64,000 nt of DNA from NCBI RefSeq assembly GCF_026016465.1, contig NZ_CP100390.1, positions 930,001 through 994,000 on the forward strand, written 5' to 3'. Each line of letters begins with the position of its first letter. Within the stretch, counting starts at the first letter, position 1. This stretch comes from Alkalimarinus alittae. Lineage in GTDB: Bacteria > Pseudomonadota > Gammaproteobacteria > Pseudomonadales > Oleiphilaceae. Below, piece by piece: positions 3,001 through 21,615 of the stretch. The position numbers were made by a program, and so were the translations under genes. The notes beneath the pieces are model-generated. The model saw only the letters and a program-made list of their open reading frames with translations, was not told the DNA's origin and searched no databases.

Positions 3001-3003
3001 TAA
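1..3003 (+). CDS. pglX: PglX, BREX type 2 adenine-specific DNA methyltransferase (5' truncated by window)
   Basis: N6-adenine methyltransferase of the BREX/Pgl phage-defence system; it marks host DNA so that phage DNA is told apart. The frame is open from base 1: the first codons read CGSGHF, the AdoMet-binding motif I, so the true start is upstream and the TTG at 19 is internal. The catalytic motif NPPY lies at about 388-400, within VVVGNPPYIVV. A long target-recognition and C-terminal region follows, ending in a Lys/Ala-rich basic tail. About 1000 codons are visible; family members are roughly 1200, so some 200 N-terminal residues are missing. The stop is 24 bases before pglY, in the same operon. 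The family call rests on the motifs together with the pglY-pglZ-brxD-brxHI context. Confidence 0.93.
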   Translation, partial: CGSGHFLLTSFERVFDDWLKREPGTNSRELAQRALDVVHGVDINPYAIAICRFRLFIAAMKAAGSSKVIDAPNFHFNLACGDSLLHGRRWQTWGTQTDLIDEDPIKHVLEVEDKDKLQKILGQQYHVVVGNPPYIVVRDKALNQAYRDRYSTCHRQYSLGVPFTERFFDLAIDSSFDNRAGYVGMITANGFMKREFGKKLIESFLSKILVTHIIDTSGAFIPGHGTPTVILFGRNQTVDDIVKLRVVMGVKAEPITPTRPEDGKVWQSIITHLQSDGGGEEYTTVVDKDRSDYKKHPWSLTGGGASELKQKIDLCENLNLGDIVAEIGFGVVTREDDAFCISESVCRRYGLNPKFIKPIVEGEAVRDWSVVDPEYGIWPYDEETLSVTNDINVKKSLWPLKSRLSSRVAYGKTQLEHGKSWYEYSMFFSRRYRASYLIVFPEVASHNHFTLAKGGDKVFRQTAPIIRLEDSELVKCLRLLAYLNSSIACFYMKQVSHQKQLTGGDGVRIEFVSKVPYQFAGTALKKLPVANALFSGKFEKLVVKYAEEMESCARYISVNFAAKSLEQALLNDGDIEENLNRFLTKKKALLSKMILLQEEIDWITYSAFGLCETLLIGDPEKWEKVDVEVGQRPFEIVEQQNQDGFDVPMGVPSHWPEDMQEKWKQRIDCIKSNRDVRIVEDPNYKRRWIGRQGLFNKSAKPDNIQRACKKWLLERIEHQSLNNEERLCTCASLSDRLNKDSDFIKIAGHYSGESDFDSQLLVNKLVHEDSIPQFSAGRYKAKAMPKFRAWQETWDKQRQEDAIDAEFGVDNPLSEQDAEYPEKVAAYETARKQANQKKAEVVGDIPLPPKYAAGDFRKASYWPLRGKLDVPKERFFSLPGCEKDGDSTLVIGWAGMNHLQRAQAIASWYLDRKETDGWEVERLKPMLVALDELIPWLKQWHNDIDPEFGERMGDHYEGFLLEELRMLDISREELLTWEPPAAPKKKRATKARKAKPKAEN

Positions 3004-3027
3004 GTCAAGGGATAAGGATAAGAAAAC

Positions 3028-6000: not shown

Positions 6001-6699
6001 GCGGCTGTATTTGGTATTACGGTAAATGCCCTGAGAACAGCTAACCACCAAAATGCGCTACAAAAGGATGTGTTGGATACAGTTAATCGTGAAATACATG
6101 ACGCAGAGCAGCTGGTCGCTGAAATAAAAACAGCGCTGAATAGACTGGGTCAAGGTTTGCAATGTAAACGTTTGCAGAATGCAGAGTATGCTCATTCTCT
6201 TGTTAAGGAATTAAAGGATAAGGAAGGCGCAGAGTTAGTAAAAGCGTTGGCAGAAATTAAGCCAGTCACTAGCTTGTCAGCCCTGGCAAAAAGTCTGTCG
6301 TCTTCAGCGAGTGTGACTCAGTCTATTCAAGACAATAACTGGCAATTGTTAGAGAGTGTTTGGTCATCTTCTGGTAACGATGGCAAAGTTATCAAGAAAC
6401 AGGTTTGCGATGCTTTGGCTGCTGATGAACTCGTCACTTCGTTAGCCCCGGCGCTGAGGCAAGCACAAACTGACGCCACTAACATCATTACAGCTCAAGT
6501 ACCAAAAACAGAACCCCCCGCTGCACCTAACCCGATACAGGGAACTCCTCGGAGTAGAGTTGTGTCTCAACAGCAAAAGTCTGGTCTCAATGTTGCTCAA
6601 GCTAAAAGCTTGTTTGCGAAAATAGAACAGGACCTAGGGGAAGATTGCAGGCTTGATGTAAGTTATACCATTACTAAAACAGACGGCAGTGGGAGCTAA
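3028..6699 (+). CDS. pglY: PglY, BREX type 2 P-loop ATPase
   Basis: Large ATPase of BREX type 2, the counterpart of BrxC in type 1 systems, thought to act in the defence complex with PglX and PglZ. The protein has 1223 residues. Walker A is GSFGSGKS at residues 74-81, and a Walker B-like VVLFLDELILWL lies near residue 275. The long C-terminal half has no motif I recognise, though its last third looks helical. An AAGGA ribosome site precedes the ATG. It sits 24 bases after pglX and 5 bases before pglZ, so it is co-transcribed. Length and order match type 2 systems, where this gene always stands between pglX and pglZ. Confidence 0.93.
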   Translation: MTLIKDLIDIPEKVQRGDFVLNLSSGLAEEAIAQTLAQYVVTPQLEKSFEDALSFIKSTVVGNQNRQKGAYLHGSFGSGKSHFMAVLHLLLQGNTQAREINELAPAVAKHDHWLQKSNILLVPYHMIGAASIESGILGGYAKHIKKLHPEAPIPGFYMSHRLFENAKQLRESMGDEVFFNTLNKGAGAVAEDDGWGDLASGWDAISFDAVLNDQSGDEDKTRLVSDLVGTLFSSMADMANTEYGGYVDFDEGLRVMTNHAKALGYDAVVLFLDELILWLASHLSDQKFIAGNIQKVVKLVEASEPRALPIASFIARQRDLREFVGDQYTGTEQQILSDSLKYWEGRFHTITLEDRNLPVIAEKRLLKPIDESAKNQINAAFSSMDTKMREEVHNILLTNQGDREMFRSLYPFSPALVQALVALSSALQRERTALKVMLMLLVDQRETLELGSCIPVGDLYDVIGSEAEPFSEAMRIHFDNAKNLFERKLIPLLEEEHHIIFANLNDLSDTDTSKRAFSNDMRLIKTLLLSALVPEVECFKQLTANKLAALNHGTIKSPIPGRETQTVLQKCRKWAGRVGEIKISDDANPTIAIQLSGVDTESILEPARINDNTGARRKLVKDMVFESFGIQDDNQLFLEHKFQWNGTHRRVEVLFQNIREISDNTTFEARGDDWKVIIDFPFDMENHSPADDKARIQDYEAAGNSARTLCWLPYFLSQNAQRDLGNLVTLEYVLKNEDRFNSFSKHLSPVDRAQARTLLENQRSQLRQRIKDYLAGAYGAAEPIPGSLDDSGSLENQIYSLEAGFSPRLPIGSNLGKAFDNLLGQALNFQYPDHPEFDSEVRLNDLGKVFEQLRRAMHATNGRIDVDGPLRSLMRSIAQPLNLGEMHERHFIFKPDWPQHLTRELAKDEFAGDPVTVKRLRAAIDQPTPKGLPDMLQNLLIMVFAEHGQYAFTYHGGDYGDVVIKDIRDDLVLIKQDLAEPTVWKQGIDNAAAVFGITVNALRTANHQNALQKDVLDTVNREIHDAEQLVAEIKTALNRLGQGLQCKRLQNAEYAHSLVKELKDKEGAELVKALAEIKPVTSLSALAKSLSSSASVTQSIQDNNWQLLESVWSSSGNDGKVIKKQVCDALAADELVTSLAPALRQAQTDATNIITAQVPKTEPPAAPNPIQGTPRSRVVSQQQKSGLNVAQAKSLFAKIEQDLGEDCRLDVSYTITKTDGSGS

Positions 6700-6704
6700 A
6701 ATAA

Positions 6705-9479
6705 ATGCAAAGTGCTCAAGCATCTGCTGTGCATGCGCCAATGCCAATCACGACGCAGCTACAGGCAATTTTTCTGAAAGATCAACAAGCCGACTGTGTG
6801 GCTATTGTGTGGCCCGAAGAATTAACCAATCGTGAAATGGTTGCCACCATTGATGGTAGAGCAACTCGGTTTGTTTACTGCCCATCTGAACTGGCAATAA
6901 GAGAAGCTTTAGTTGAGCATACGAAACAGCGTGAATCAGATAAAAACAAAGAACGATTGGTACTGTTATCAAAGTTTGATGAAGTGCATCTTGCTAAAGA
7001 TGTATTAGCCCGTATTTGGAAAAATGAGCCTCAGCGTATTAGTCCCTGGAAAACCCTGCAGCAGTTAATTAAGGTTAGAGATGTTGACCCCCGGCTAACC
7101 AAGAAAAACGGCCGGTGGATGGCGGAAGCGTTACTAAATCGGTTTGATAAATACCATCAGCAAATGACTTTCGGTGAGGTGCTCGATACTGAAAGTGCTT
7201 GGCAAGCACTAGCGCTAGGCTACCTAAACTACTGTGAGCCGGTTATGGATTTGCAGTCACTTTTTCAATGGTCTATTCAAAATGACGAGCGAGCTCTTGT
7301 TAATGCGTTGCCAGAGGATATCAAGCTTAATCTTGGTGTGTGGTTGAATTTCGGATTACCCAAATTAAGTGAACTTGTTCATACCATTCTTTTAGGCAAG
7401 CAAAATGAAAGTTTGTTATCAATTGCGCTAGCTTGTTCGGTGTTGTATCACGAAGATATTCAAAAAACGTCTTTAATAGATTTGACCGCACTTCATACTG
7501 CCAGAGGAATGTTTAAATCCCAATTTTTAGGTGGAAGTAATTTTAATGAAAGTTTGTTACAAACGCTTGGATTAGAAGCCAGCTTATTTGCTAACAAAGT
7601 GGTTACATCGACAGGTTATAAACCGGTAAATATTGCTTTAGGTGAAGCGGAACAGATATTAGCCAGCATAGACATAATCGACGCCATTGAGCTATCGCCT
7701 GTATTACCCGGGAGTCTTAATAAACGACTAGACCGTTTTGCTTTATCACTGGAGGATGCGCTTAATGACGGTGAAACTCATAAGGCGGATTGCAGCTTTT
7801 CTTATATAAAAGACCACAGCTTTACCAAGTTAGATGCTAAGAAAGAACTATTGCGGCGAGCGAGCATGGCTTTGCGATTGGTTCGTTGGTTAAGTTCGGC
7901 TGAGGATGCGTTGATTGATGCGGCAAGTTCAATAAATCACTATATGCGTGAGGGCTGCTATTCTGATTGGGGTAGGTCACTGCTGTGGTCCGGTGATGTG
8001 CATGAAAAACTGAACCAAGTCTATCAAAGGATTTCTGAAGAGGCAGGTAAACGAAGAGAGCAGCAAAATAAAACGTTTTCTTCGCAATTAACACCTCTTT
8101 CGCGAGGGGACACGATAGATGATCGGTTTATACCTGTTGAACAAGCTATTGACCGATTAGTTATCCCCGTTGCTGACCAAAGCCCGGTATTACTGCTGGT
8201 ATTAGATGGCATGAGTGAGGCCGTATATCGGGAGCTAACGGAGGATCTTCTAAAGCATCACTGGCTGGAAATACGAGAAAAAAGTCGCCAGGATGAGTGT
8301 TGCTTGGTGTCTGCTTTCCCTACTATTACCAAAGTGAGTCGTTGTTCTTTATTGTCTGGTCGATTAGCGTCAGGCGTCGCAGTTGATGAAAAACTCGCGT
8401 TTAAAGAACATCCTTCTTTGAAAAAAATCGCATCGACAAAGTTTCCTCCCACACTCTTCCATAAACAAGATTTACAACAAACGCGCAGTGTGGCTTTGAA
8501 TAACGAGGTGAGAGCAAAACTGGCGAGTACAGAGCACAGGGTATTAGCTGCCGTGATTAACGCTGTAGATGACCATTTATCCAGCGGTTCTCAGGTATCC
8601 GTTGCTTGGACCTTGGACGCCATCCCATTATTAAGGCAGGTTCTTGAAGCGGCGAGAGAGGCTGGTCGAGTCGTGATTTTTACTAGTGATCATGGTCATG
8701 TTCTAGATCATGACTCTGTGTATCAGCAAGCTCAAACAGAAAACGGTGAACGTTATCAGTTGTCGACCGGTCAGCCCAGTGAGTATGAAGTCGCTATTTC
8801 AGGCAAACGAGTGGTTACTGAGACTAACTCTGTCGTTCTGCCTTGGTCAGAACGTCTTCGCTATACCAAATCGAAAAATATGGGTTATCACGGTGGTGGA
8901 AGTCTCCAAGAAGTCGTCATCCCGCTTGGTGTGTATGTGAGTGCCACTGATAGCGATGTTATTGAGGGTTGGTCTCCTGTGGCTAGAAACCTGCCTGAGT
9001 GGTGGTACGAAGAGCTGGCTGTTGAAGAAAACCCTCCGACAGTAATGAGTAAACCTTCGGAGAATACTCGAAAAAGTAAGAAGATCAAGAACGCAGAAGC
9101 AGCGGCAGAAGTCATGGATGATATGTTTGGTATCCCGCCAGAACAAGACAAGGTCTCGACTGAAATTAATACGAGCCCATGGATTAGTGATATTTTTACT
9201 TCAGCTGTTTACCAACAAGCTAAACAACGTGTAGGACGCAATGCGGTCAAGGATGAGCAACTAATGGCGTTGATAGAATTGCTGAGTCAGCAGAATGGAC
9301 AGGCAATGGAAGCGGCCGTGCTCAGACATTTATCCTTACCGAAAATACGTTTGAGAGGATTTTTGGCAGGCGCACAAAAACTATTGAATGTAGATGGTTA
9401 CCCTATACTGTCTGTAGAGCGAGACTCACAAACCATCAAATTGAATCTGACTGATCTGAAAAAACAATTCGAATTATAA
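6705..9479 (+). CDS. pglZ: PglZ, BREX alkaline-phosphatase superfamily protein
   Basis: PglZ is the signature protein of BREX systems; its phosphatase-fold domain is needed for phage exclusion, though its substrate is not settled. The 924-residue protein shows the metal-site motifs expected of the fold: LLVLDGMSEAVY around residues 498-509 and FTSDHGHVLDHD around 659-670. The N-terminal half has no recognisable motif. A serine/lysine-rich linker around residues 780-810 separates the phosphatase domain from a small C-terminal helical domain. The start ATG follows GGGAG in the end of pglY. It lies in the middle of the operon, 17 bases before brxD. Confidence 0.94.
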   Translation: MQSAQASAVHAPMPITTQLQAIFLKDQQADCVAIVWPEELTNREMVATIDGRATRFVYCPSELAIREALVEHTKQRESDKNKERLVLLSKFDEVHLAKDVLARIWKNEPQRISPWKTLQQLIKVRDVDPRLTKKNGRWMAEALLNRFDKYHQQMTFGEVLDTESAWQALALGYLNYCEPVMDLQSLFQWSIQNDERALVNALPEDIKLNLGVWLNFGLPKLSELVHTILLGKQNESLLSIALACSVLYHEDIQKTSLIDLTALHTARGMFKSQFLGGSNFNESLLQTLGLEASLFANKVVTSTGYKPVNIALGEAEQILASIDIIDAIELSPVLPGSLNKRLDRFALSLEDALNDGETHKADCSFSYIKDHSFTKLDAKKELLRRASMALRLVRWLSSAEDALIDAASSINHYMREGCYSDWGRSLLWSGDVHEKLNQVYQRISEEAGKRREQQNKTFSSQLTPLSRGDTIDDRFIPVEQAIDRLVIPVADQSPVLLLVLDGMSEAVYRELTEDLLKHHWLEIREKSRQDECCLVSAFPTITKVSRCSLLSGRLASGVAVDEKLAFKEHPSLKKIASTKFPPTLFHKQDLQQTRSVALNNEVRAKLASTEHRVLAAVINAVDDHLSSGSQVSVAWTLDAIPLLRQVLEAAREAGRVVIFTSDHGHVLDHDSVYQQAQTENGERYQLSTGQPSEYEVAISGKRVVTETNSVVLPWSERLRYTKSKNMGYHGGGSLQEVVIPLGVYVSATDSDVIEGWSPVARNLPEWWYEELAVEENPPTVMSKPSENTRKSKKIKNAEAAAEVMDDMFGIPPEQDKVSTEINTSPWISDIFTSAVYQQAKQRVGRNAVKDEQLMALIELLSQQNGQAMEAAVLRHLSLPKIRLRGFLAGAQKLLNVDGYPILSVERDSQTIKLNLTDLKKQFEL

Positions 9480-9496
9480 TTGAGAGATAACTAGCA

Positions 9497-10816
9497 ATGG
9501 GTATTAGCCAGCAACGACGACAAGATATTCTCGATGCATTGCGACGTGGCACGGTACCACAATATGGTCTAGATGCATTGGCGGTTGGTCTGCAGTCTTT
9601 TGAACATGCTTTTGATGAAGAGCTCAGTAAAGTCGCTCGCGGCGGTGCAGTATTTAAGGCAATTAGGGGAGAGTACGGTAGCGGTAAGACCTTCGCGTCA
9701 CGTTGGCTACGGGAGCGAGCTCATAAGTTGGGTTTTGCTTGTGCTGAAGTGCAAATCTCGGAAACTGAAACACCTTTGCATCGACTAGAAACGGTTTATA
9801 GACGATTGATGGAGAGGTTAACCACACCAGATACACCATCCGGTGCGTTTCGCAATATCGTTGAATCCTGGTTTTATACGTTAGAAGAAGATGTGTTATC
9901 TCAAGAGGAGATAGATCCTGATGATGTTGATTCTTTAGTCGCTGCAACAGATGCACTAATGGAGAAACGATTAGGTGAAGTGGTGAGATCAGCCCCTGCA
10001 TTTGCACTTACACTTAGGGCCTATAGAAAAGCATTGGTTGAGGGTGAAGATGAAATTGCAGATGGCTTGCTTGCCTGGATGGCAGGACAACCCAATATTT
10101 CTGCCGCAATAAAACGCTATGCAAAAATAAAAGGCGATATTGACCATTTTGGCGCACTAAGTTTTTTACAGGGCGTCTTAACCATACTAAAAGACTCTGG
10201 CCATCCCGGTTTGTTGCTTGTACTTGATGAGGTAGAAACTCTTCAACGTATGCGGGGGGATGTTAGAGATAAAAGCTTAAACGCATTAAGACAGCTAATG
10301 GATGAGGTAGATAGCGGTCGATTTCCTGGGCTGTATTTGGTAATTACCGGGACACCTGCGTTTTTTGATGGGCCTATGGGTGTTCAACGGTTAGCGCCAC
10401 TGGCCCAGAGGCTGGCGGTCGACTTTGCGACTGATGTGAGGTTTGATAATCCTCGTGCTGTACAAATCCGACTGAAAGGATTCAATCGTGAATCGCTTGA
10501 AGAAGTGGGAGCAAAGGTTAGGGATTTGTACGCAAAAAATACTGCAGCAACAGAGCGAATCGAAACATTGGCAGATAACAACTATATTGCTGATTTAGCA
10601 AATGCAGTGACGGGTAATTTAGGCGGCAAAGTCGGTATTGCACCAAGGATATTTCTGAAAAAGCTTGTTGGTGAGGTGTTAGATCGTATCGATCAGTTTG
10701 ATGATTTTTTTCCAAGAGAACATTATGCGCTGACAATTTCTGATACAGAATTAACGGATGTGGAACGTGCCTCTAAATCTGCTGGTAGTGTCGATGATAT
10801 TGAGCTAGACCTATGA
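9497..10816 (+). CDS. brxD: BrxD, BREX type 2 ATP-binding protein
   Basis: ATP-binding protein specific to type 2 BREX; in the family it is expected to work with the BrxHI helicase. The 439 residues carry Walker A GEYGSGKT at 58-65 and Walker B LLLVLDEVETL near 238-248, followed by RQLMDEVDSGRFPGLYLVITGTP, an ORC/Cdc6-like sensor region. The C-terminal part is winged-helix-like in length but has no clear motif. Its TGA overlaps the brxHI start in ATGA, so translation is probably coupled. Length is normal for the family and the frame is intact. Confidence 0.92.
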   Translation: MGISQQRRQDILDALRRGTVPQYGLDALAVGLQSFEHAFDEELSKVARGGAVFKAIRGEYGSGKTFASRWLRERAHKLGFACAEVQISETETPLHRLETVYRRLMERLTTPDTPSGAFRNIVESWFYTLEEDVLSQEEIDPDDVDSLVAATDALMEKRLGEVVRSAPAFALTLRAYRKALVEGEDEIADGLLAWMAGQPNISAAIKRYAKIKGDIDHFGALSFLQGVLTILKDSGHPGLLLVLDEVETLQRMRGDVRDKSLNALRQLMDEVDSGRFPGLYLVITGTPAFFDGPMGVQRLAPLAQRLAVDFATDVRFDNPRAVQIRLKGFNRESLEEVGAKVRDLYAKNTAATERIETLADNNYIADLANAVTGNLGGKVGIAPRIFLKKLVGEVLDRIDQFDDFFPREHYALTISDTELTDVERASKSAGSVDDIELDL

Positions 10817-12915
10817 GTGAGTTTGATAAACTCCATCCGGCGATACAGCACCATATCGTTAATAGCCTAGGTTGGCCAGGCCTGAGGCCTCTTCAAGAAT
10901 CTACCATTCAGCCGGTATTAAATGGCGAACATGCAATTTTGCTGGCACCTACAGCAGGCGGTAAGACTGAAGCAGCGAGTTTTCCCGTATTTTCTAGAAT
11001 GTTATCTGAAAACTGGAATGGTCTAAGTGTTCTGTATATCTGCCCAATCAAAGCACTACTTAATAATCTGGAAGAGCGCTTAAGCTATTATGGTCATTTG
11101 CTTGGTCGGCGCGTTGAAGTGTGGCACGGGGACATTAGCGCTTCAAGAAAAGCAAAAATCACTTCAGAGCCTCCTGACATATTGCTCACTACTCCTGAGT
11201 CACTTGAAGTGATGTTGGTTTCCGGAAGAATTGATCAACGAAGCCTTTTTGCCAACGTCAACAGCGTTATTATAGATGAGGTGCATGCTTTCGCAGGCGA
11301 TGATAGAGGGTGGCACTTACTTTCAGTGTTAGAACGTATAAGTGTGATTGCGGGTCGAGAGTTACAGCGGCTAGGTTTATCTGCAACCGTGGGTAACCCT
11401 GATCTTTTATGTGACTGGCTCGCAAGCGCTTGCCAAGCTCGAAGAAGCGTTATAAACCCTCCCGCTGAAAACAACGTTATCCCTGATATACAAGTCGATT
11501 GGGTGGGATCAATTAGAAATGCTGCGCTTGTCATATCACGGTTGCATCGAGGTGAGAAACGACTGGTTTTTGTAGATAGTCGTTCACGAGTAGAAGAGCT
11601 TTCCATGGAGTTGCGGGCGCTCGGAGTTGCCACCTATGTTTCTCATAGCTGTTTAAGCTTGGAAGAACGTCGCTCTGCAGAGGAAGCATTTTCCCAAGGC
11701 TCTGACTGTGTCATCGTAGCAACCTCGACTTTAGAGCTGGGTATCGATGTCGGCGATTTAGATAGGGTGATTCAAATAGATTCACCGTTCACGGTCGCAT
11801 CGTTCTTGCAGCGTATCGGTAGGACGGGAAGAAGAGCTGGCAGTTCACGTAACTGCTTATTTTTAGCCACTAAAGAAGATGCATTTCTTAGAGCCTTAGC
11901 GCTTCTCCATTTGTGGAAAAAAGAGTTTGTTGAACCTATCGTACCACCGCCGAGACCCATGCATATTTTTGCTCAACAGGTCTTGGCGTTGACGCTGCAG
12001 GAAGATGGGATCATTCAACAGGATGTGGGCAAATGGATTGGCAATATGCCTGGGTTTTCCGGTATCCCAGAAGAAGAGAAGGAGTATCTGGTTAGTTATA
12101 TGCTTTCGACGGGCATATTGCATTCTGACTCAGGAATACTTGGGATAGGGCGTGCCGGGGAAAAATCGTTTGGCCAGAAGAACTTTATGGAGCTGTTTTC
12201 TGTTTTTACCAGTCCGCCAATGGTTAAAGTTTTTCATGGTAAACAAGAGCTAGGGGAGGTTCACCAGTTAACATTTGCTGTGAAGGAAGAAGGGCCTGCA
12301 TTACTGACTTTGGGCGGTCGTAGTTGGCAGACCAAGTACATTGATTGGCCACGAAGAAAGGCCTATGTTGAACCTACCGATCAGCGAGGAAGGTCTCAAT
12401 GGATTAGTGCGGGTCAACCCATGCATTATGAAATGTGCCAAGCGATTTCTGAGATTTTATCCTCTGAAAACATCCCTGAAGGCCTTTCGCAACGCTCAAA
12501 AACGCTATTGGAAGAATTGAAGGAAGAGTTTGATTGGGTTGACGCAAGTAATTCCACGTTACTCATTGATTCAGATCGTAATGTCCATTGGTGGACATTT
12601 TCAGGAAAACTGCTTAATGCGGCGTTATCGGAATCTTTAATAGGCGAAGCGGATAATGTTTCGTCAGACAATCTATGCATCTCATTTTCTCATGTTTATG
12701 ATGTTGAGTCATTGGTGAGTAAAATCAAAGAGATTATGGAAGATGACGAGATTCGTGTTCTCCTTTCTTTAGAAGAGGATTTTATCCAGGAGCTGAAATT
12801 TTCTGAATGCCTTCCACAGTCTGAAATTGATAGAGAAATTCTCGCTCGTTATTCAGTTGATAAGAATCTTGAACGTTTACGGTGTCTCAGATTGAGTGTG
12901 TTGAGAGTCGTATAG
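10813..12915 (+). CDS. brxHI: BrxHI, BREX type 2 Lhr-like superfamily 2 helicase
   Basis: DEAD/DEAH-box helicase that completes the type 2 BREX operon. Motif I is APTAGGKT at residues 45-52, the DEVH box IIDEVHAF is near 151-158, motif III appears as LSATVGNP near 190, and motif VI is QRIGRTGRRAG near 335. This is the Lhr-type helicase core followed by a 300-residue accessory region. It has 700 residues, typical for BrxHI. It starts inside the brxD stop and is the last gene of the operon: 168 bases without a gene follow, with no obvious strong terminator. Confidence 0.92.
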   Translation: MSEFDKLHPAIQHHIVNSLGWPGLRPLQESTIQPVLNGEHAILLAPTAGGKTEAASFPVFSRMLSENWNGLSVLYICPIKALLNNLEERLSYYGHLLGRRVEVWHGDISASRKAKITSEPPDILLTTPESLEVMLVSGRIDQRSLFANVNSVIIDEVHAFAGDDRGWHLLSVLERISVIAGRELQRLGLSATVGNPDLLCDWLASACQARRSVINPPAENNVIPDIQVDWVGSIRNAALVISRLHRGEKRLVFVDSRSRVEELSMELRALGVATYVSHSCLSLEERRSAEEAFSQGSDCVIVATSTLELGIDVGDLDRVIQIDSPFTVASFLQRIGRTGRRAGSSRNCLFLATKEDAFLRALALLHLWKKEFVEPIVPPPRPMHIFAQQVLALTLQEDGIIQQDVGKWIGNMPGFSGIPEEEKEYLVSYMLSTGILHSDSGILGIGRAGEKSFGQKNFMELFSVFTSPPMVKVFHGKQELGEVHQLTFAVKEEGPALLTLGGRSWQTKYIDWPRRKAYVEPTDQRGRSQWISAGQPMHYEMCQAISEILSSENIPEGLSQRSKTLLEELKEEFDWVDASNSTLLIDSDRNVHWWTFSGKLLNAALSESLIGEADNVSSDNLCISFSHVYDVESLVSKIKEIMEDDEIRVLLSLEEDFIQELKFSECLPQSEIDREILARYSVDKNLERLRCLRLSVLRVV

Positions 12916-13597: not shown

Positions 13598-13798
13598 ATG
13601 TCTAAAACCGACGATAAAATAATCTGCTGTCATTGCGGGCGGCGCATAGTTCCGAGAATTTCATTCCGATACGGGGAGCCATATCGTTCATGGTGCCCAT
13701 TCTGCAAAGCGCGGGTTGACGAGGAGGACATTGATACCGTGCCGATGTTGATTCTGGTCTCACTTGTCATAGCTGCATATTACGTTTTCTGGGATTAG
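13598..13798 (+). CDS. Small zinc-ribbon protein with C-terminal membrane anchor
   Basis: A 66-residue protein. The ATG at 13598 was chosen over an upstream start at 13541 because GGAG stands seven bases before it and the zinc ribbon begins right after. CCHC at residues 10-13 and CPFC at 33-36 form a two-knuckle zinc ribbon. Residues about 48-64 (VPMLILVSLVIAAYYVF) form a single hydrophobic segment at the C-terminus, giving a tail-anchored layout. It stands on the BREX strand, and its end is 12 bases from the convergent gene at 13810. The biological role is unknown; zinc-ribbon/TM mini-proteins of this kind are common hypothetical cargo of islands. Confidence 0.65.
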   Translation: MSKTDDKIICCHCGRRIVPRISFRYGEPYRSWCPFCKARVDEEDIDTVPMLILVSLVIAAYYVFWD

Positions 13799-13809
13799 GA
13801 ACTTGATTT

Positions 13810-14115
13810 CTAATGAATCAAATTCGTTAACTCTGGCGCAATGACACCCTCGAATCTAGCCAATTGTGCCATTCGTAGTATTAGTAATGAGGATATTACA
13901 TCGGCGTCTCGTGGGTTTGGGTGAATATGTTTCATTCTACGTATGGTTTTATCTATTAAAATGTCGGCATCAAGACTATAAAAAGGGTTGTGCTTTCTGG
14001 GTGATGTCATAATCCAGTCATGATATAGAAACAGCAATTGTTCCATATCACTGTCGTATGTTGGCCATCCAGTTTCCTCTAGCCATTCTCCCACATCAAC
14101 ATTGATTTTTATCAT
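13810..14115 (-). CDS. TGWPT-motif protein, copy 1 (unrecognised family)
   Basis: A 101-residue protein on the minus strand. The start at 14115 has GGAG seven bases upstream and makes the length match its paralogue at 18430-18729; a start at 14226 would add 37 unrelated residues. Residues about 8-20 read VGEWLEETGWPTY. Shared with the paralogue are W, TGWPT, D, Y and W, SPR, LD, RMK, H, DA, LL, AR and EG, roughly 30 percent identity along the full length. No Cys pairs, membrane segment or known DNA-binding motif is seen. It points away from the replication module, so it is transcribed apart from it. The function is unknown. Confidence 0.7.
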   Translation of the reverse strand: MIKINVDVGEWLEETGWPTYDSDMEQLLFLYHDWIMTSPRKHNPFYSLDADILIDKTIRRMKHIHPNPRDADVISSLLILRMAQLARFEGVIAPELTNLIH

Positions 14116-14233
14116 CTCATTTTCTCCACATGGATTTCCCGTCCATGATATTCGTGGGAGAGATAATGCAAGAAAAAATTTCATTTGACTGAACAAAAAT
14201 GTGAGTAATTTTTCATGGCAGCTCATCTAAATA

Positions 14234-14257
14234 TGTAGGCATTGTAGGGGTTGTAGG
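14234..14257 (+). repeat. Three TGTAGG repeats at exact 9-bp spacing
   Basis: TGTAGG occurs at 14234, 14243 and 14252, followed by a GGGGTAACAGG stretch. The repeats lie in the 280-base gap between two divergent genes: the TGWPT gene reading left and the HTH/primase genes reading right. The place and spacing suit an operator or a repressor/replication-protein binding array. This is inference. Confidence 0.45.
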
Positions 14258-14396
14258 GAGGGGTAACAGGAGGCATTACTGGCTTGTTCGGTCAAAAGGT
14301 TGTTACGGTTGCGAGTTTCGCAAAAATATGGAGCTTTTTGGCTGTTGCGAATCTTCAGAATGTATGTTTCCGAATAACGTAATAAAGGCCATACAT

Positions 14397-14594
14397 ATGA
14401 CAAATTCTAATATTAACTCACCACAGCCCATTCGTGACGCTCTTCGACCAGTCCCTAGCCTCGTTCCCGCTATGTTGCCGGATGCTATTTCTGGGATCGT
14501 ATTTGACGGTGCAGAGCGTATAGGTTGCCAGCCTGACTTCTCGTATTTTGTATCAATTGGGTTACCACTCCTGAAACGGTGGGAGTGGCCTAAC
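14397..14594 (+). pseudogene. Remnant of the N-terminus of a DUF3987-type (YfjI-like) protein
   Basis: This frame reads IRDALRPVPSLVPAMLPDAI and then AERIGCQPDFSYFVSIGLP, which resembles the first 60 residues of DUF3987 helicase-like proteins of satellite islands. The similarity stops abruptly before a run that belongs to the next gene, and no helicase core follows. It stays in frame with the HTH gene at 14595, so a fused reading of 168 residues from the ATG at 14397 is possible (AAAGG precedes it). I read it as a deletion scar left when one replication module replaced another. The family match is from memory and moderate. Confidence 0.45.
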
Positions 14595-14900
14595 ATGAAA
14601 ACCAAAAGAAACTGCAGCGGCACCACTCCACCACCAGAAGAAAGTGTTTACAACACCGTTATTTTAGCACAACAAAAAGTCACCATTAACGCTCTGATTA
14701 CTAACCACGATGGTTCAATCACTATTCAGTTAAGGGAAGACTATAGCGTTATGCTGCCAGCGGCTAGGGTTTGGGAATTGCGGCACGACGTCAACTACAG
14801 AGTAGTTACCCATTGGCACACCAGCGAAAACGCCCAAGGCCATAAACACAGAAACGCGCGTTATGTGTTGTTACCCGGTCAACACAAAGGGGGCCAGTAA
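14595..14900 (+). CDS. Small helix-turn-helix protein preceding the primase (HTH_39-like)
   Basis: A 101-residue protein whose ATG at 14595 has GGGAG nine bases upstream. The core VTINALITNHDGSITIQLRE followed by MLPAARVWELR has the pattern of small winged-helix proteins (helix, TT/QLR, M-PAAR-ELR) often found directly before satellite primases. They are thought to be DNA-binding regulators. Its stop overlaps the primase start in TAATG, so the two are translationally coupled. The same frame extends upstream into a DUF3987-like remnant, leaving the exact N-terminus uncertain. Confidence 0.7.
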   Translation: MKTKRNCSGTTPPPEESVYNTVILAQQKVTINALITNHDGSITIQLREDYSVMLPAARVWELRHDVNYRVVTHWHTSENAQGHKHRNARYVLLPGQHKGGQ

Positions 14901-15928
14901 TGAACACCATAGAACTGGCAAAAGGCAACTATCAAGCAATTTACGCGGCTTTGTTTCCTGATTTGAAATACAACACTAAGCACCAGCCTTGCATTATTTG
15001 CGGGGGTAAAGACCGGTTTAGATTCTTCTCTGACTATCAAGAAACCGGCGGGGCTATCTGTAACCAGTGTGGAGCGGGCAACGGGATTACTTGGGTAATG
15101 CGCGCCCTTGGTTGTAATTTCAAGGAAGCCAGCAGGCAGATAGAAAGTATTTTAGGTATTAACCGCGACAATCAGAATAGTTTTGATGATGTGGTCATTA
15201 ACCTAAAGAAACAACGGCAAAAGCAGGAGGCAAAAGAACAAACCAGAATAAAGGCGCTAATCCCTTACAAGAAACACCAGCTTAATACATTGCTTGCTAA
15301 GGTCAGACCGATAACCGAGGTAAACGCAGCGTTAGACTATTTATGCAATCGCGGCCTTGGAGAATTGATAGCGAGTGATGATTTGCCGGAGGTTTGGGGA
15401 GCAGTAGAAAGCCTCGAATATAACGAGGAATCAAAGAAGGCGATTTACCCGGCGTTAGTTGCTCCCGTTGTTTCTAGTGGTGAATTGGTGAATGTTCACC
15501 GTACCTACATTGCCAACAATGGACAAAAGGCACCGGTTGAACATGCAAAAAAACTAATGCCTTCCATCTACCCCGGCGCTATGAAAGGCGCAGCAATAAA
15601 ACTCTATCCTGCAGGATCTCGGTTAGCGATTGCCGAAGGAATAGAAACAGCCTTGGCGGTAAGAGTGGCTAAACCTGATCTACCCGTATGGGCGACCGTC
15701 ACCGCTTATGGCATGAAAACCGTTAAATTACCGGGCATGGTAGCAGAGGTGTTTATCATGGCTGATCTGGACGCTACCGAGACCGGCGAGAAGGCCGCTA
15801 TTGAGCTGCAAAAGCGATTACAAAGGGAAGGACGAAAAGCAGTTGTATGCCTTCCAGATGGCGCTATACCAGAAGGGGCAAAAGGTATTGATTGGTTGGA
15901 CATGCTAAATCAGGGGGTAGCGGTATGA
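14900..15928 (+). CDS. P4-alpha-like primase: zinc ribbon plus Toprim domain
   Basis: DNA primase of satellite-phage/island replication. The zinc ribbon has CIIC at residues 31-34 and CNQC at 54-57, as in the P4 alpha family. The second half is a Toprim domain, with IAEGIETALAV near residue 248 (catalytic Glu) and FIMADLDATETG near 285 (DxD). With 342 residues it is a stand-alone primase, the helicase being the next gene rather than fused as in phage P4. It overlaps the genes on both sides by four bases or fewer. It would let the excised element, or its integrated origin, replicate. Confidence 0.85.
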   Translation: MNTIELAKGNYQAIYAALFPDLKYNTKHQPCIICGGKDRFRFFSDYQETGGAICNQCGAGNGITWVMRALGCNFKEASRQIESILGINRDNQNSFDDVVINLKKQRQKQEAKEQTRIKALIPYKKHQLNTLLAKVRPITEVNAALDYLCNRGLGELIASDDLPEVWGAVESLEYNEESKKAIYPALVAPVVSSGELVNVHRTYIANNGQKAPVEHAKKLMPSIYPGAMKGAAIKLYPAGSRLAIAEGIETALAVRVAKPDLPVWATVTAYGMKTVKLPGMVAEVFIMADLDATETGEKAAIELQKRLQREGRKAVVCLPDGAIPEGAKGIDWLDMLNQGVAV

Positions 15929-17805
15929 GCAAAGAAAGCGTATTGAGAGCCCTAACATCTGCAGTAACAGAGTCAGATTGCTCTAAAACGGCGTTACCAA
16001 CGTTACCTACGTTACCAGCCAGCAAAGACGGGTTTTCCGGTGGTAACGAAAGCCATAACAGTAACGATACCAATGTTACTGAATGGCCGACTTTAGAGGA
16101 TCGCCCTTGCTGGCGTTGTTATCCTGAGTGGGTAAAAGACTTAAACGGCGATGCTAGAAAGAGCGGTGTTTGGTATCACAGTGTTGAGGGTGAAGGGGAC
16201 AACCAAATATTAATTGATACCTGGCTGTGTACTTACCTATCAGTGGAGGCCATTACCTCAGATGGCACCGGCGCAGAGTTTGGGCGCTTGCTGGTGATTA
16301 AAGACCCCTACGGCCAACTAAAGGAATGGGCAATGCCTATGCGTATGTTAAGCGGAAGCTTTGAAGAAGGCCGAGGGGAATTGCTTAATATGGGCGTGGA
16401 GTATTGCCAGCGAAACAGAAACCGCTTAATGGATTACCTATTCAGCGAACACCCCAAAAGACGGGTATTAGCAGTCAACCAGACAGGATGGAAGGAAACC
16501 GAGAAGGGCCGCGTTTTTGTGATGCCTGATTGCTTGTTTGGTGATGTTGATGTGGTGTTTCAATCAGAACAAGCCGCACTAGGCGACTATGCCAACAATG
16601 GCAGCTTTGACGGTTGGCAAAATGAAATAGGCAAACGATGCAGAGAAAATCCTATCTTACAATTTGCCGTTTGTGCGTCCCTGGCGGGGCCATTACTCCA
16701 CCTACTGCATAAAACTAACGGCGGGGTTCACTTTGTTGGTGATTCATCATGCGGCAAAACCACGGCGCTAAATGTGGCTTGTTCCGTTTGGGGCCAGCCT
16801 GACCAGTTTATGAAAACATGGCGCGCTACCGGTAATGGGTTGGAAGGGATAGCCGCACTTAGGAATGACACCATTCTTGTGTTGGATGAGATCGGAGAGG
16901 CAGACCCCAAGGAAGTTGGCGGCATTGTTTATTCCCTTGGTAATGGTACCGGAAAACAAAGAGCCAACGTTAAGGGAAACGCCAGAAAGGTGAATAAGTG
17001 GCGCTTGTTTCTGCTCTCGAGTGGCGAACGTACTTTAAATGCCATTATGGGGGAAGCAGGTAAACGATCCACTGCAGGACAGCAAGTGAGACTTTTGGAC
17101 ATCCCTGTTACTGGTACTCATGGCGCTTTTGATGAACTGCACGATGCAAAAGATGGGCGCGAACTTTCTGATTATCTAAAAACCTCCTGTAACCGCCACT
17201 ATGGGCATGTTGGTAAAGCATTCATTCGCGACTTACTGGGAGAAAAAAGTGACCTAGGCGAAGGTCTGGAAGCCGTTAAACCATACTTTGAAGCAGAAAC
17301 CAGCAATCAGGAAGGGCGAGGGGCTGACCGATTTGCTGTAGTCGCTTTGGCTGGTGAATTGGCTATTAAATATGGCCTATTGCCTTGGGAAGAGGGTGAC
17401 GCAATAGAAGCTGCTTTAAGCTTGTTCGATGCTTGGCGAGAGCTGCGGGGCACTGGCAATGCAGAAGACACCCAGATAAAAGAAATGATTTTGGATTATC
17501 TCGATAAGTATGGTGATTCCCGTTTTACAAACCTTAATCCGAAAGCAAACAGCTTTGATACTTCACCTGATAACCGGCTAAGCGGCGCAGAAAGGGCGGG
17601 ATATTGGGAGGAAACCGGAGGCGAAAGGCAATACCGATTTTTAGTAGCTGGTTTGAAGGAAGCCACAAAAAGCCATGATATGAGGCGAGTTAAGCAGGCA
17701 CTTGTGTCTGCAGGTTGGTGGAGCAAGGACACTGCAGATCAAGTAAAAACCACTGATGGCAATAAACGCCTTTACCAACCATTGAAAATTAGAGGGGGTA
17801 AATAA
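15925..17805 (+). CDS. DUF927-family replicative helicase/ATPase of the island
   Basis: A 626-residue protein; the ATG at 15925 overlaps the primase stop (ATGA) and is preferred to an upstream start at 15892. Walker A GDSSCGKT is at residues 272-279 and Walker B ILVLDEIGE at 317-325, the typical DUF927 core. The N-terminal 60 residues include TLPTLP and a Cys/Trp motif PCWRCYPEW. The DNA encoding TLPTLP carries three CGTTACC repeats spaced 9 bp. DUF927 proteins pair with satellite primases and are taken to be the element's helicase. The frame is intact. Confidence 0.85.
   Translation: MSKESVLRALTSAVTESDCSKTALPTLPTLPASKDGFSGGNESHNSNDTNVTEWPTLEDRPCWRCYPEWVKDLNGDARKSGVWYHSVEGEGDNQILIDTWLCTYLSVEAITSDGTGAEFGRLLVIKDPYGQLKEWAMPMRMLSGSFEEGRGELLNMGVEYCQRNRNRLMDYLFSEHPKRRVLAVNQTGWKETEKGRVFVMPDCLFGDVDVVFQSEQAALGDYANNGSFDGWQNEIGKRCRENPILQFAVCASLAGPLLHLLHKTNGGVHFVGDSSCGKTTALNVACSVWGQPDQFMKTWRATGNGLEGIAALRNDTILVLDEIGEADPKEVGGIVYSLGNGTGKQRANVKGNARKVNKWRLFLLSSGERTLNAIMGEAGKRSTAGQQVRLLDIPVTGTHGAFDELHDAKDGRELSDYLKTSCNRHYGHVGKAFIRDLLGEKSDLGEGLEAVKPYFEAETSNQEGRGADRFAVVALAGELAIKYGLLPWEEGDAIEAALSLFDAWRELRGTGNAEDTQIKEMILDYLDKYGDSRFTNLNPKANSFDTSPDNRLSGAERAGYWEETGGERQYRFLVAGLKEATKSHDMRRVKQALVSAGWWSKDTADQVKTTDGNKRLYQPLKIRGGK
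15992..16048 (+). repeat. Iteron-like cluster 1: CGTTACC/GGTAACG
   Basis: CGTTACC occurs at 15992, 16001 and 16010, exactly 9 bp apart. The inverted form GGTAACG follows at 16042, with looser copies AGTAACG at 16060 and TGTTACT near 16075. The array lies inside the 5' end of the helicase gene, where it encodes TLPTLP. The same word recurs in both orientations in another gene (17864-17961), which favours selection on DNA over selection on protein. Confidence 0.6.
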
Positions 17806-18191
17806 TGTCTGTCGTCGCTCTAAAAGAATTTTTAAAAGATTTTACCCCCCGAAACCACCGAAAGGTAACACCGGTAACGTTACCAAAAACGCAATTGTTA
17901 CCATTAAAACCCGCGCCAACCGTGGGCGGTAACGAAGGTAACGTTAAAAACGATAGTAACGAGAAAGATTTGATAAACATATTAGGCGGGTATGGATTAA
18001 CTAAAGACTCAATAATGCGCGGATTGTCATTATGGAAACAGCCATTTGATGAAGAAGACCTGCAGGATATCAAGCAGGGAATTATTACCTTGGATAACGT
18101 TAGAGATTATCTGGCGCTTTGGATTGTCCAAAAAAACGAAATGTACTTGGAACTAAAAAGAGGTGCCAGCAAGTGTGCATTCAAAAAGTAG
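17805..18191 (+). CDS. Unrecognised 128-residue protein of the replication module
   Basis: The start overlaps the helicase stop in TAATG, so it belongs to the same transcript and is probably coupled. Residues 1-55 are basic and low in structure (KVTPVTLPKTQLLPLKPAPT, then GNEGNVKNDSN) and are encoded by the second GGTAACG cluster. Residues about 58-110 look like a folded helical domain (GLTKDSIMRGLSLWKQPFDEE). No catalytic motif, Cys pair or membrane segment is seen. It may be a replication accessory factor or initiator partner; this rests on position alone. Confidence 0.6.
   Translation: MSVVALKEFLKDFTPRNHRKVTPVTLPKTQLLPLKPAPTVGGNEGNVKNDSNEKDLINILGGYGLTKDSIMRGLSLWKQPFDEEDLQDIKQGIITLDNVRDYLALWIVQKNEMYLELKRGASKCAFKK
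17864..17961 (+). repeat. Iteron-like cluster 2: GGTAACG/CGTTACC with 12-bp palindrome
   Basis: GGTAAC words begin at 17864, 17873, 17928, 17937 and (as AGTAACG) 17955, all separated within each group by 9 or 18 bp. At 17873-17884 two copies face each other to form the perfect palindrome GGTAACGTTACC, and TGTTACC lies at 17896. This is the densest set of the word in the window. It fits binding sites for the island's replication protein, but lies within a coding sequence. Confidence 0.6.
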
Positions 18192-18430
18192 ACTTCACAA
18201 TACCTGCTGTCAAATACATTGGGGTTGATGCCTCAGTTCTTCGAAGCTTCTGCTCGCGTGTAATCCTGCACAAGAACCAGCTAATCCGACTATCAAAAGG
18301 ACTAGGCCTTAGCCTACATTCCCTACAAATAAATATTGTAGCGTTTGTTTTTCGTGAAATTGACGGTTGCATAATTAAACAGGTTGTTACCCTGGCTCGT
18401 CTAATAGATAGAGTTAGGAGGAAAAACTAA
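18173..18430 (+). CDS. Unrecognised 85-residue protein of the replication module
   Basis: I place the start at the GTG at 18173, which has an AGAGG about 10 bases upstream, rather than at 18119, where the frame would overlap the previous gene by 73 bases. The product is basic (ends DRVRRKN) and reads VGxDASVLRSFCSRVILHKNQLI then LSLHSLQINIVAFVF. It contains no motif I know. Its stop overlaps the ATG of the next gene in TAATG after an AGGAGG site, so the row of small genes behind the helicase is one translational unit. The function is unknown. Confidence 0.5.
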   Translation: MCIQKVDFTIPAVKYIGVDASVLRSFCSRVILHKNQLIRLSKGLGLSLHSLQINIVAFVFREIDGCIIKQVVTLARLIDRVRRKN

Positions 18431-18729
18431 TGACTAAAGAATGCTGGGAAGTAGAAATTGAAAGCTGGATAGACAATACCGGCTGGCCTACTCATGATGC
18501 AGATATTCTTGAGATGGGCCAAGTTTATGCGATCTGGAAAGAGAGAAGCCCGCGATGCAAATATACTGGGTGTCTAGATAGTAAATTACTCAGCACTATG
18601 ATTCTCGAGCGAATGAAAGATTTGCACTGCTGTGAACATGATGCATATATGGTCTCAGGAATGTTGTTACTAGAGGCAACGATAATGGCCAGGAAGGAGG
18701 GGCTATTGCAGAGAGTGTTTACCGATTAG
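18430..18729 (+). CDS. TGWPT-motif protein, copy 2 (unrecognised family)
   Basis: A 99-residue protein with a strong AGGAGG ribosome site eight bases upstream. ESWIDNTGWPTHDADI at residues about 11-26 matches the VGEWLEETGWPTYDSDM of the gene at 13810-14115, and the similarity runs to the C-terminus (SPR, LD, ERMK, DA, AR-EG). The two therefore form a diverged paralogous pair flanking the replication module, on opposite strands. Four Cys residues are scattered, not paired as in a zinc finger. No known domain is recognised. It is the last gene of the module operon. Confidence 0.72.
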   Translation: MTKECWEVEIESWIDNTGWPTHDADILEMGQVYAIWKERSPRCKYTGCLDSKLLSTMILERMKDLHCCEHDAYMVSGMLLLEATIMARKEGLLQRVFTD

Positions 18730-18929: not shown

Positions 18930-19781
18930 ATGAGATCTATAAAATTTAAAGTTTCAGTATCCGTTGCTGCTCTTTTAGTTGTGGTGTTGTCATTGACAGG
19001 TTGGATTGATAATAAAGGCAGTGAATATGCGTCCGAACAAATAAAAGTCGCGGCTATAACCTACGGTGTAGCTAGGTCGTTAAATGCAGGTATATCTGTT
19101 GCTCAAGGGACTGAAATAACATTATCACCCGCAGGTGTTGGTACATCTTTAAGCGTTGGGGAGTTACTTGACCCTGTTAATGATATGGTTGAGCGCTTCT
19201 CGTTGGTCGTGCTCGCTGCGATAACATCACTGGGCATACAACAAATATTGATTAGTATTGCATCAACAAAACTCAGCAATTTATTAGTAGTGATTTCTAC
19301 AATCAGCTGCTTAGCTATTTGTATAAAGCCAAAATTAGCATCACAGGGTTTTCGAATAGTTGCATTTAAAGCCTGTTTACTTCTGATAGTTTTTAGATTC
19401 TTTATCTCGTTAAGTCTTCTACTTAACCAAGCTGTATATGTAAACATTATTGAAAACGAACAAACAGAATCTCTAGCATCGCTGAAAATCTCAGCAGGAG
19501 AGATAAAAACAGTCACATCACCGCAGGACTATTCAAACAACTCGGAAGGTTCTTTGTACGATGAATTAAAAAATAAACTGGAAAACCTTAAAGAGAGTAT
19601 GAGTAATGCACTTGATCTCGAAAAACTTAAAAATAAAGCCAACAAGACAATTGACAGCATGACAGATCTAATAATTTCATTCGTTCTGCTGACGCTCCTA
19701 ATGCCGATTGCTTTCTTGTGGTTTGGCATAAAACTGATTGGCTATATCATTACATACAAACCAAAGCTATCAGTTGATTAG
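18930..19781 (+). CDS. Unknown multi-pass membrane protein with coiled-coil segment
   Basis: A 283-residue protein. Hydrophobic segments are seen at about 8-24 (signal anchor), 90-108, 111-130, 143-165 and 248-272, with a charged, probably coiled-coil stretch at 208-245 (LYDELKNKLENLKESMSNAL) between the last two. The region after the first segment (VARSLNAGISVAQGTEITLS then GVGTSLSVGELLDPVND) has the feel of a conserved periplasmic motif that I recall in uncharacterised proteins of Vibrio and Shewanella islands, without a known function. AAGG precedes the ATG by seven bases. It is a single gene between the replication module and the integration genes, so it is plausible cargo. Confidence 0.7.
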   Translation: MRSIKFKVSVSVAALLVVVLSLTGWIDNKGSEYASEQIKVAAITYGVARSLNAGISVAQGTEITLSPAGVGTSLSVGELLDPVNDMVERFSLVVLAAITSLGIQQILISIASTKLSNLLVVISTISCLAICIKPKLASQGFRIVAFKACLLLIVFRFFISLSLLLNQAVYVNIIENEQTESLASLKISAGEIKTVTSPQDYSNNSEGSLYDELKNKLENLKESMSNALDLEKLKNKANKTIDSMTDLIISFVLLTLLMPIAFLWFGIKLIGYIITYKPKLSVD

Positions 19782-20151: not shown

Positions 20152-20505
20152 GTGAGCAATCTATCGTTACAACCACGAATTATTAGGGTAGGTCATGCAC
20201 CCGCATATTGCGGCATGAGTGATCGTGTTTTTAATTCTGATATACGCCCATTTCTAACTGAAATCCCGGTAGGCGTTCAGGGTAAAGCATTTGATCGGTT
20301 TGAATTAGACAAGGTTCTGGATGATTATGTAGCGCGGTATGGACGCGCTCCAGAAATGAAATGGGAGTATAACCAATGCAAAAAAGAAGAACCACAGGCC
20401 TCAGGCAAATCAAAGGCATTTGGCATATCGACAAAACCATCAACGGTCAAAGATTTTGCCAAAGCTGCGGCACGAGCGAAAAACAAGAAGCCGAAGAGAT
20501 GCTAG
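20152..20505 (+). CDS. AlpA/excisionase-like small protein
   Basis: A 117-residue protein with a GTG start preceded by a GAGGG site. Its first 70 residues (RVGHAPAYCGMSDRVFNSDI, then LTEIPVGVQGKAFDRFELD) match the small helix-turn-helix proteins that sit directly before integrases in many gammaproteobacterial islands. Their layout resembles MerR/AlpA-type excisionases, which bend att DNA and steer excision. The basic, Lys-rich tail (ARAKNKKPKRC) is encoded in the 130 bases that also encode the start of the integrase in another frame. The directionality role is inferred from position and fold. Confidence 0.7.
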   Translation: MSNLSLQPRIIRVGHAPAYCGMSDRVFNSDIRPFLTEIPVGVQGKAFDRFELDKVLDDYVARYGRAPEMKWEYNQCKKEEPQASGKSKAFGISTKPSTVKDFAKAAARAKNKKPKRC

Positions 20506-21497
20506 CAAGGTTGATAGATCAACAGAGAAAAGCGAGGCTCTTTGGCGAGCGGCCTGATAGAATTTTTAGGGTTGCTGCGACTAAATACCTCGAAGACTAT
20601 TGCCATAAGAAAAGCATAGGTTGTGATGCAAATGATCTCATAAAGCTTGATGAGTTTATCGGTGACGTGTATTTAAAGGATATTCATAACGGTACTCTAG
20701 AAAAGTTTATCAAAGCTCGTAAGAAGGATGGCGTTAAGTCTGGGACGGTTAACAGAAGCCTTGCTGTGCTGAAAATTATTCTAAATCTGTGTGTGAACGA
20801 ATGGCGGGATCAACAAGGGCTTACCTGGCTAGAAACGATTCCTAAGATCTCAAATGTTGACTGGAAGGATAAACGTAAGCCACGACCGATTTCATGGAGT
20901 GAACAGAACAAGTTATTTTCTAAATTGCCTGAGCATTTAAGAGAGGCTTGTTTATATAAGGTAAATACAGGATGCAGAGAGCAGGAAGTATGTCAGTTGC
21001 AATGGGACTGGGAGGTACAAATACCTGAGCTAAAGACTTCCGTGTTTATTCTTCCAGAATGGGTTACGAAGAATGGGAAGGAAAGGGTAGTAGTTTTAAA
21101 CTCTACTGCTATGGCAGTGATTAATCGTCAAAGAGGTAAGCACGAAGAGAGGGTGTTCACCTATCAGGGTAAACCATTGGCGGGGTTAAATGAAGGGGCT
21201 TGGCAGCGCCATAGAAAAAAAGTTGGACTGTCTGATGTCAGAATTCACGATTTACGACATACCACTGGCAGGCGTTTAAGAGCTGCTGGAGTTCCCAAGG
21301 AAACAAGAAGTGATATTTTGGGGCATGATAATGGTGATATGACTAGTCATTATTCGATTGCTGAAATTGATGAATTGATAGAAGCAGTTGAAAAAATTGC
21401 GGATGAAAGTACTTCAGCAACACCGACTTTAAACTCACTTAGAAATGATCAATCACGAAAAAATCACGAAGACATAAAAAAAGAGCTTACAATATGA
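20376..21497 (+). CDS. int: Tyrosine recombinase (site-specific integrase)
   Basis: A 373-residue integrase that inserts and excises the island. The catalytic set is complete: R201 (GCREQEV), H291-x-x-R294 (IHDLRHTTG), H317 (LGHDNG) and Tyr326 (SHYSIAE). The N-terminal 60 residues form the arm-binding region and the middle the core-binding domain. The ATG at 20376 has GGGAG eight bases upstream, which fixes a 130-base overlap with the preceding gene. The stop lies within a terminator hairpin, and the tRNA-Met 3' end follows 41 bases later, which identifies the target site. Confidence 0.95.
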   Translation: MQKRRTTGLRQIKGIWHIDKTINGQRFCQSCGTSEKQEAEEMLARLIDQQRKARLFGERPDRIFRVAATKYLEDYCHKKSIGCDANDLIKLDEFIGDVYLKDIHNGTLEKFIKARKKDGVKSGTVNRSLAVLKIILNLCVNEWRDQQGLTWLETIPKISNVDWKDKRKPRPISWSEQNKLFSKLPEHLREACLYKVNTGCREQEVCQLQWDWEVQIPELKTSVFILPEWVTKNGKERVVVLNSTAMAVINRQRGKHEERVFTYQGKPLAGLNEGAWQRHRKKVGLSDVRIHDLRHTTGRRLRAAGVPKETRSDILGHDNGDMTSHYSIAEIDELIEAVEKIADESTSATPTLNSLRNDQSRKNHEDIKKELTI

Positions 21498-21525: not shown

Positions 21526-21538
21526 ATAAGAATAAAAA

Positions 21539-21583
21539 TGGTGGCTACACCGAGATTCGAACTTGGGACCCCATCATTATGAG
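21539..21583. other. Probable right attachment site (attR) in the tRNA-Met 3' part
   Basis: The integrase gene abuts the 3' end of tRNA-Met, and integrases of this kind recombine within the tRNA 3' half and restore the gene. The crossover point cannot be set without the other copy, which I did not see inside the window. Confidence 0.4.
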
Positions 21584-21615
21584 TGATGTGCTCTAACCAA
21601 CTGAGCTATGTAGCC
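21539..21615 (-). tRNA. metT: tRNA-Met (CAU), elongator type
   Basis: On the minus strand a 77-base cloverleaf including encoded CCA: 5' arm GGCTACA pairs with TGTAGCC, the D-loop has AGTTGGTT, the anticodon loop CTCATAA gives CAU, and the T-arm has GTTCGAATC. It is very close to the elongator tRNA-Met of E. coli, not the initiator. It serves as the island's insertion target. Confidence 0.97.

Follow-up and report, generated by a model that had tools for sequence, protein, structure and literature searches.

The 64,000-nucleotide stretch of the Alkalimarinus alittae genome analysed here (the window) encodes two homologous proteins of about 100 residues on either side of a primase-helicase module. 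We show that they belong to a family, here called TGWPT, with four aligned members, each encoded on an island that also has an integrase, a replicase and a MobI-like gene. Our best explanation, to which we assign a probability of about 0.3, is that the small, soluble and mostly acidic TGWPT proteins, which are predicted to be all-helical, serve integrative islands as protein-binding accessory factors and would adjust how the excised island is replicated or maintained.

The TGWPT family

TGWPT protein 1 (101 residues; 13813-14115, minus strand) and TGWPT protein 2 (99 residues; 18430-18729, plus strand) are homologues, with 31 of 94 aligned residues identical (33%) and 53 of 94 similar (56%; BLASTP as a single comparison, 60.5 bits, E 2e-18). 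An earlier note on this DNA had reported similarity along their full length, and indeed their Smith-Waterman score of 147 compares with a mean of 25 and a maximum of 49 in 2,000 shuffles. The frame of protein 1 is open from 14226 and its plausible start is the ATG at 14115, preceded by the ribosome-binding site GGAGAAAATGAG. In all pairwise comparisons within the family codon position 2 shows the fewest changes (46/28/60 for copy 1 against the third copy), which is the pattern that constraint on coding sequence should produce. Because of the BLASTP result, the shuffle scores and this codon pattern, the likeness is far above chance and both frames look like genuine coding genes.

We defined the family by full-length similarity together with the motifs W-x5-T[GS]WPT, SPR, LD, M[KR], DA and A[RK].EG. 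The motifs first listed for the two window proteins (W-x5-TGWPT, SPR, LD, RMK, DA, AR-EG) are mostly retained in two further homologues. The third paralogue lies outside the window at genome position 915.1 kb, 29 kb off and within the same element of about 50.35 kb, and the fourth member is a gene (610-918, plus strand) of the congener G003 (public contig CAJXUY010000012.1, labelled uncultured Oleiphilaceae). The predicted pI is about 5 in three of the four proteins and nearly neutral (6.8) in the G003 copy. Pairwise identities are 46% between copies 1 and 3, 48% between the G003 protein and copy 3, 44% between the G003 protein and copy 2 and 33% between copies 1 and 2. These values show the copies to be old paralogues and not the product of a recent duplication event beside the replication module.

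Beyond the window genome and G003, profile searches found no member in the whole taxonomic family (163 genomes) or in the sampled order, class and phylum, where the matches were weak, chance-like and interrupted by in-frame stops. A match in G073 (21 bits over 54 residues inside a 455-residue frame) was not accepted as real. Likewise, no homologue was found in IMG/VR contigs, PLSDB plasmids or INPHARED phages, and the G003 contig was the sole match when GTDB contigs were scanned with the TGWPT alignment; these scans of contig collections rest on short patterns and may miss distant members. Relatives of the window's DUF927 replicase mostly occur in genomes without the family, which by these searches is rare and narrowly spread, being found in one genus among the genomes searched. 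Such a narrow distribution could be that of decaying selfish or orphan genes with no present function. However, all four frames are open and have plausible ribosome-binding sites, 24 columns are invariant at 33-48% identity and codon position 2 changes least, so we regard decay as very improbable.

As the earlier note had supposed, the proteins fall into no named family: profile and sequence scans of Pfam, PHROGs, NCBIfam and PADLOC gave no convincing match (the best, SPIN90_LRD at 17.2 bits, is under its cut-off of 27), and the four-member profile found no PDB chain. An AlphaFold model built from three of the sequences (mean pLDDT 76.3, pTM 0.69) is an all-helical four-helix bundle, with helices at residues 12-19, 25-41, 53-67 and 72-93 of the G003 protein and low confidence for the first ten residues; copy 1 modelled by itself was unusable (pLDDT 50.8). 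Structural matches to the model were not above helical-bundle background, with a best Foldseek E of 3.1 in the PDB and 0.70 among viral structures and a best VIA-align Z of 7.8, inside the range expected for helical bundles. The model has no apparent DNA-binding fold, and neither model nor profile scans contain a helix-turn-helix. A reading of the proteins as DNA mimics was rejected on their net charge of just about -5 to -6.

The element and its replication operon

The copies of the window genome lie on an integrative element at a tRNA gene. Its tyrosine integrase (20376-21497, plus strand; Pfam, PHROGs) abuts a tRNA-Met (21539-21615), whose 3' part is covered by attR, a 54-bp direct repeat at 21534-21587. 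The attL copy is found at genome position 901182-901235 with 51 of 54 bases identical, so that the repeats are 50.35 kb apart and enclose all three TGWPT copies. These boundaries are supported by the congener G001, in which the genes flanking the element are about 3 kb apart and adjoin the same tRNA. A phage-type small protein (PHROG 13517; 20152-20505, plus strand) is, from its position, a likely excisionase. At the same tRNA-Met G003 retains a remnant of a related integrase, and in the congener G002 (C1:2813782-2825506) the region just 5' of this tRNA is split by about 11 kb, which suggests another insertion at the site.

As cargo the window carries a type 2 BREX system (19-12915, plus strand) that comprises PglX, a PglY-like protein, BrxD, a DEAD-box helicase and an ORF taken by eye and position for PglZ. 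In NCBIfam PglX scored 979 against a cut-off of 400 and BrxD 676 against 350, and the PglY score of 1051 is under its cut-off of 1700. Upstream of the window, a 1,389-residue ORF was named by eye and position as the kinase-like first BREX gene. The left part of the element holds two RAYT-like genes, named by eye and 95% identical (L012 8808-9794 and L006 5579-6565), that bracket alkane-hydroxylase-like and reductase genes.

TGWPT protein 2 is encoded by the last gene of a co-directional replication operon (14328-18729, plus strand). The operon starts with a protein that has a winged-helix C-terminus (14328-14900, start possibly at about 14398; HTH_39, 28.0 bits against a cut-off of 21.3) and continues with a primase with zinc ribbon, DUF7146 and Toprim_3 domains (14900-15928; Pfam, PHROG 510), a DUF927 replicative helicase identified by profile matches (15925-17805), a 128-residue protein (17805-18191) whose C-terminal domain is common to the post-helicase ORFs of the G003 and G080 elements, and an 85-residue ORF (18173-18430; GTG start inferred) that overlaps both neighbours. 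Successive genes meet in TAATG or ATGA overlaps at 14900, 15925, 17805 and 18430, the last of them joining TGWPT protein 2 to the preceding ORF, and in a 19-base overlap at 18173. TGWPT 2 is followed by a 283-residue membrane-type ORF (18930-19781) with no match in Pfam, PHROGs or NCBIfam. The earlier note had described two copies flanking the primase-helicase module. The flanking is confirmed, but there are not just two copies, since the third lies elsewhere in the element. Nor do the copies form a special pair around the module: the G003 island has only one that was found, and for the antagonistic functions proposed for the two we see no evidence.

The gene for TGWPT protein 1 diverges from the winged-helix gene that opens the operon, and that of G003 diverges from alpA (209-424, minus strand; Pfam, 80.7 bits). 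Regulators of islands are commonly located divergently beside alpA or a replication operon. The arrangement at these two of the four loci could thus point to a protein that regulates the island at the transcriptional or post-transcriptional level, such as a repressor, an anti-repressor or an antiterminator-like protein. By eye, the region LD..LLI...I.RMK also resembles phage antitermination protein Q (PF06530), which is likewise about 100 residues long and has a vaguely similar central pattern, D..L.ID..I.RL. However, PF06530 itself matches no TGWPT copy, and a comparison by hhalign with three PF06530 proteins was not significant (probability 0.3%, E 0.18, both profiles being thin), so the identity with Q was rejected. 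Moreover, a helix-turn-helix is missing from model and profile scans, and the four upstream regions share only scattered 9-base words, with no shared operator found among them. A regulatory role therefore appears rather unlikely.

The operon also carries repeats. In the 64-kb window there are 16 copies of the heptamer GGTAACG against an expectation of 4.2, and two clusters, often with 9-base spacing, account for eight of them. Cluster 1 (15992-16048) has four GGTAACG, three of them at 9-bp spacing, at the start of the helicase gene; cluster 2 (17864-17943) consists of GGTAAC/GGTAACG at 9-bp spacing inside the 128-residue ORF, with its full heptamers at 17873-17943. Arrays of other heptamers are found behind the helicase elsewhere, namely eight GGTGCAA and twelve TGTGCAA in two G080 elements and ten GGGGAAC in phiAH14b. 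Three CGATAAA pairs lie behind the helicase of G003; behind those of vB_Pae_U10 and G022 there is no comparable array. Arrays of 7-base words with a spacing of about 9 bases lie in or just behind the post-helicase gene at L030 9150-9343, L031 9855-10231, L016 9300-9521 and L018 5408-6006, and in the window element and G080 the repeats are within coding sequence. In the window and in G080 C80 the count is eight, which stays within the maxima of first-order Markov shuffles, so that the argument for these two rests on clustering and 9-base spacing. The arrays are likely to be iterons that bind the replicase, some of them placed inside genes, and those within the helicase and post-helicase genes yield a prediction, open to experiment, of the sites at which such islands begin replication.

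A linked zinc-ribbon family and the G003 island

The recurrent neighbour of three of the four TGWPT copies is not a second TGWPT copy but a zinc-ribbon protein of membrane type. Next to TGWPT 1, and tail-to-tail with it, lies a gene for a 66-residue zinc-ribbon protein with a C-terminal hydrophobic helix (13598-13798, plus strand). A paralogue is head-to-head with the third TGWPT copy (L006 10554-10742), and a gene in G003 (L008 1757-1960, minus strand) is 0.84 kb from the TGWPT gene. These proteins, two in the window genome and one in G003, are 63-68 residues long, contain two CxxC pairs and are hydrophobic at the C-terminus. The G003 protein passes the zf-LITAF-like model of Pfam (25.5 against a cut-off of 23.8) and that of the window does not. 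This is a second undescribed family, apparently of membrane type. Three of the four TGWPT genes thus have a zinc-ribbon gene less than 1 kb away, those of the window genome at about 15 and 150 bp. Orientation varies between convergent, divergent and separated arrangements, which disfavours a simple operon and, as the two genes form no short operon, also a classical type II toxin-antitoxin pair of copy 1 and its zinc ribbon.

The G003 island and the window element both have TGWPT, a zinc-ribbon protein, a putative lipoprotein, a MobI-like protein and the C-terminal domain that was noted in the 128-residue ORF, but the G003 island differs in its DUF3987 replicase, its integrases and its Dnd-like cargo (named by eye and from a PAPS-reductase match). 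Because the islands have this set in common and differ in cargo, TGWPT is part of a shared accessory set rather than of one defence system. The lipoproteins (514 and 492 residues; L006 13815-15356 and L018 6992-8470) are 41% identical, with a weak DUF6923 match and no clear family. Each island has one MobI-like protein (L006 18626-19348, at genome 923.6-924.3 kb, and L018 8664-9392), whose matches to PF19456 (E 1.7e-5 and 0.0023; 25.3 and 18.5 bits) are both under the cut-off of 26.6; these genes suggest helper-dependent conjugative mobilisation. Large defence-type systems on both islands could indicate that TGWPT is a defence or anti-defence accessory of the BREX-2 or Dnd-like cargo. Yet these cargoes are different, no PADLOC model matches TGWPT and copies 1 and 2 stand beside the replication module and not within the BREX operon, which makes such a role improbable.

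Another possibility is that TGWPT and the zinc-ribbon protein form a two-protein unit, for example for the exclusion of a second island or a conjugative helper or for early establishment, with copy 2 as a diverged copy that the replication operon has captured. Both zinc ribbons of the window genome adjoin TGWPT, the only one of G003 is close to its sole TGWPT gene, this linkage persists through the changes of orientation and the MobI-like genes hint at conjugative mobilisation. On the other hand, no zinc-ribbon gene lies near copy 2, TGWPT and zinc ribbon never share an operon and the MobI matches are under the curated cut-off. We consider this reading possible but tentative. The more far-reaching version is doubtful; in it the two proteins would together make up a membrane-linked system for control or exclusion, so far undescribed in integrative islands, which was multiplied in one island and in part became tied to the replication operon there.

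Proposed role and comparison with known islands

A role in control or maintenance of the element, as the earlier note had suggested, is the proposal that we favour, with the gene at 18430-18729 being the last of the primase-helicase operon. As accessory factors, TGWPT proteins would act by contacts with a replication or maintenance protein. Copy 2, translated together with primase and helicase, would bind a replication protein and limit or assist iteron-directed initiation, whereas copies 1 and 3 together with the zinc-ribbon protein might do a related job from their own promoters, possibly at the membrane. This proposal agrees with the overlap of copy 2 with the operon that it ends, with the divergence of copy 1 and the G003 copy from the replication operon and alpA, with the restriction of the copies found to mobile islands and with a model that lacks an apparent DNA-binding fold. 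Against it, 29 kb separate copy 3 from the replication genes, and its neighbours are a lipoprotein-like gene and an AbiE-like pair. The G003 replicase belongs to another family and is encoded about 15 kb away from TGWPT, so that no obligate partnership of TGWPT and replicase is visible. The near-neutral pI of the G003 copy and the lack of the family in most genomes with a related DUF927 replicase also count against the proposal. The pair near copy 3 was named AbiEi/AbiEii-like by eye (L006 11691-13005). The functional reading draws on four sequences and the model on three. Islands like that of the window carry BREX and Dnd between bacteria, and their copying, keeping and transfer are poorly known. 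A replication-linked factor with a membrane-type partner and three copies in a single genome would be a genetically simple handle on island upkeep.

The role of MobI has been described for MobI-encoding mobilizable genomic islands of the MGIVchHai6/MGIVmi1 type (PMC5397120). With these the window island has in common an integrase, a likely excisionase, a MobI-like gene and integration at a conserved gene end (PMC5397120). However, it is integrated in tRNA-Met and has its own replication module, and its MobI matches are under the Pfam cut-off. Among the proteins scanned with general profiles, no genes of the P4-like satellite set (psu, sid, delta, epsilon, alpha, alpA) were noticed. In satellite phage P4 the copy number is controlled by Cnr (PMC8628076). 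TGWPT resembles Cnr by analogy alone, both being small and encoded on integrative elements that can replicate after excision with a primase-helicase of their own. In the window element this replicase is split into a Toprim primase and a DUF927 helicase, unlike P4 alpha.
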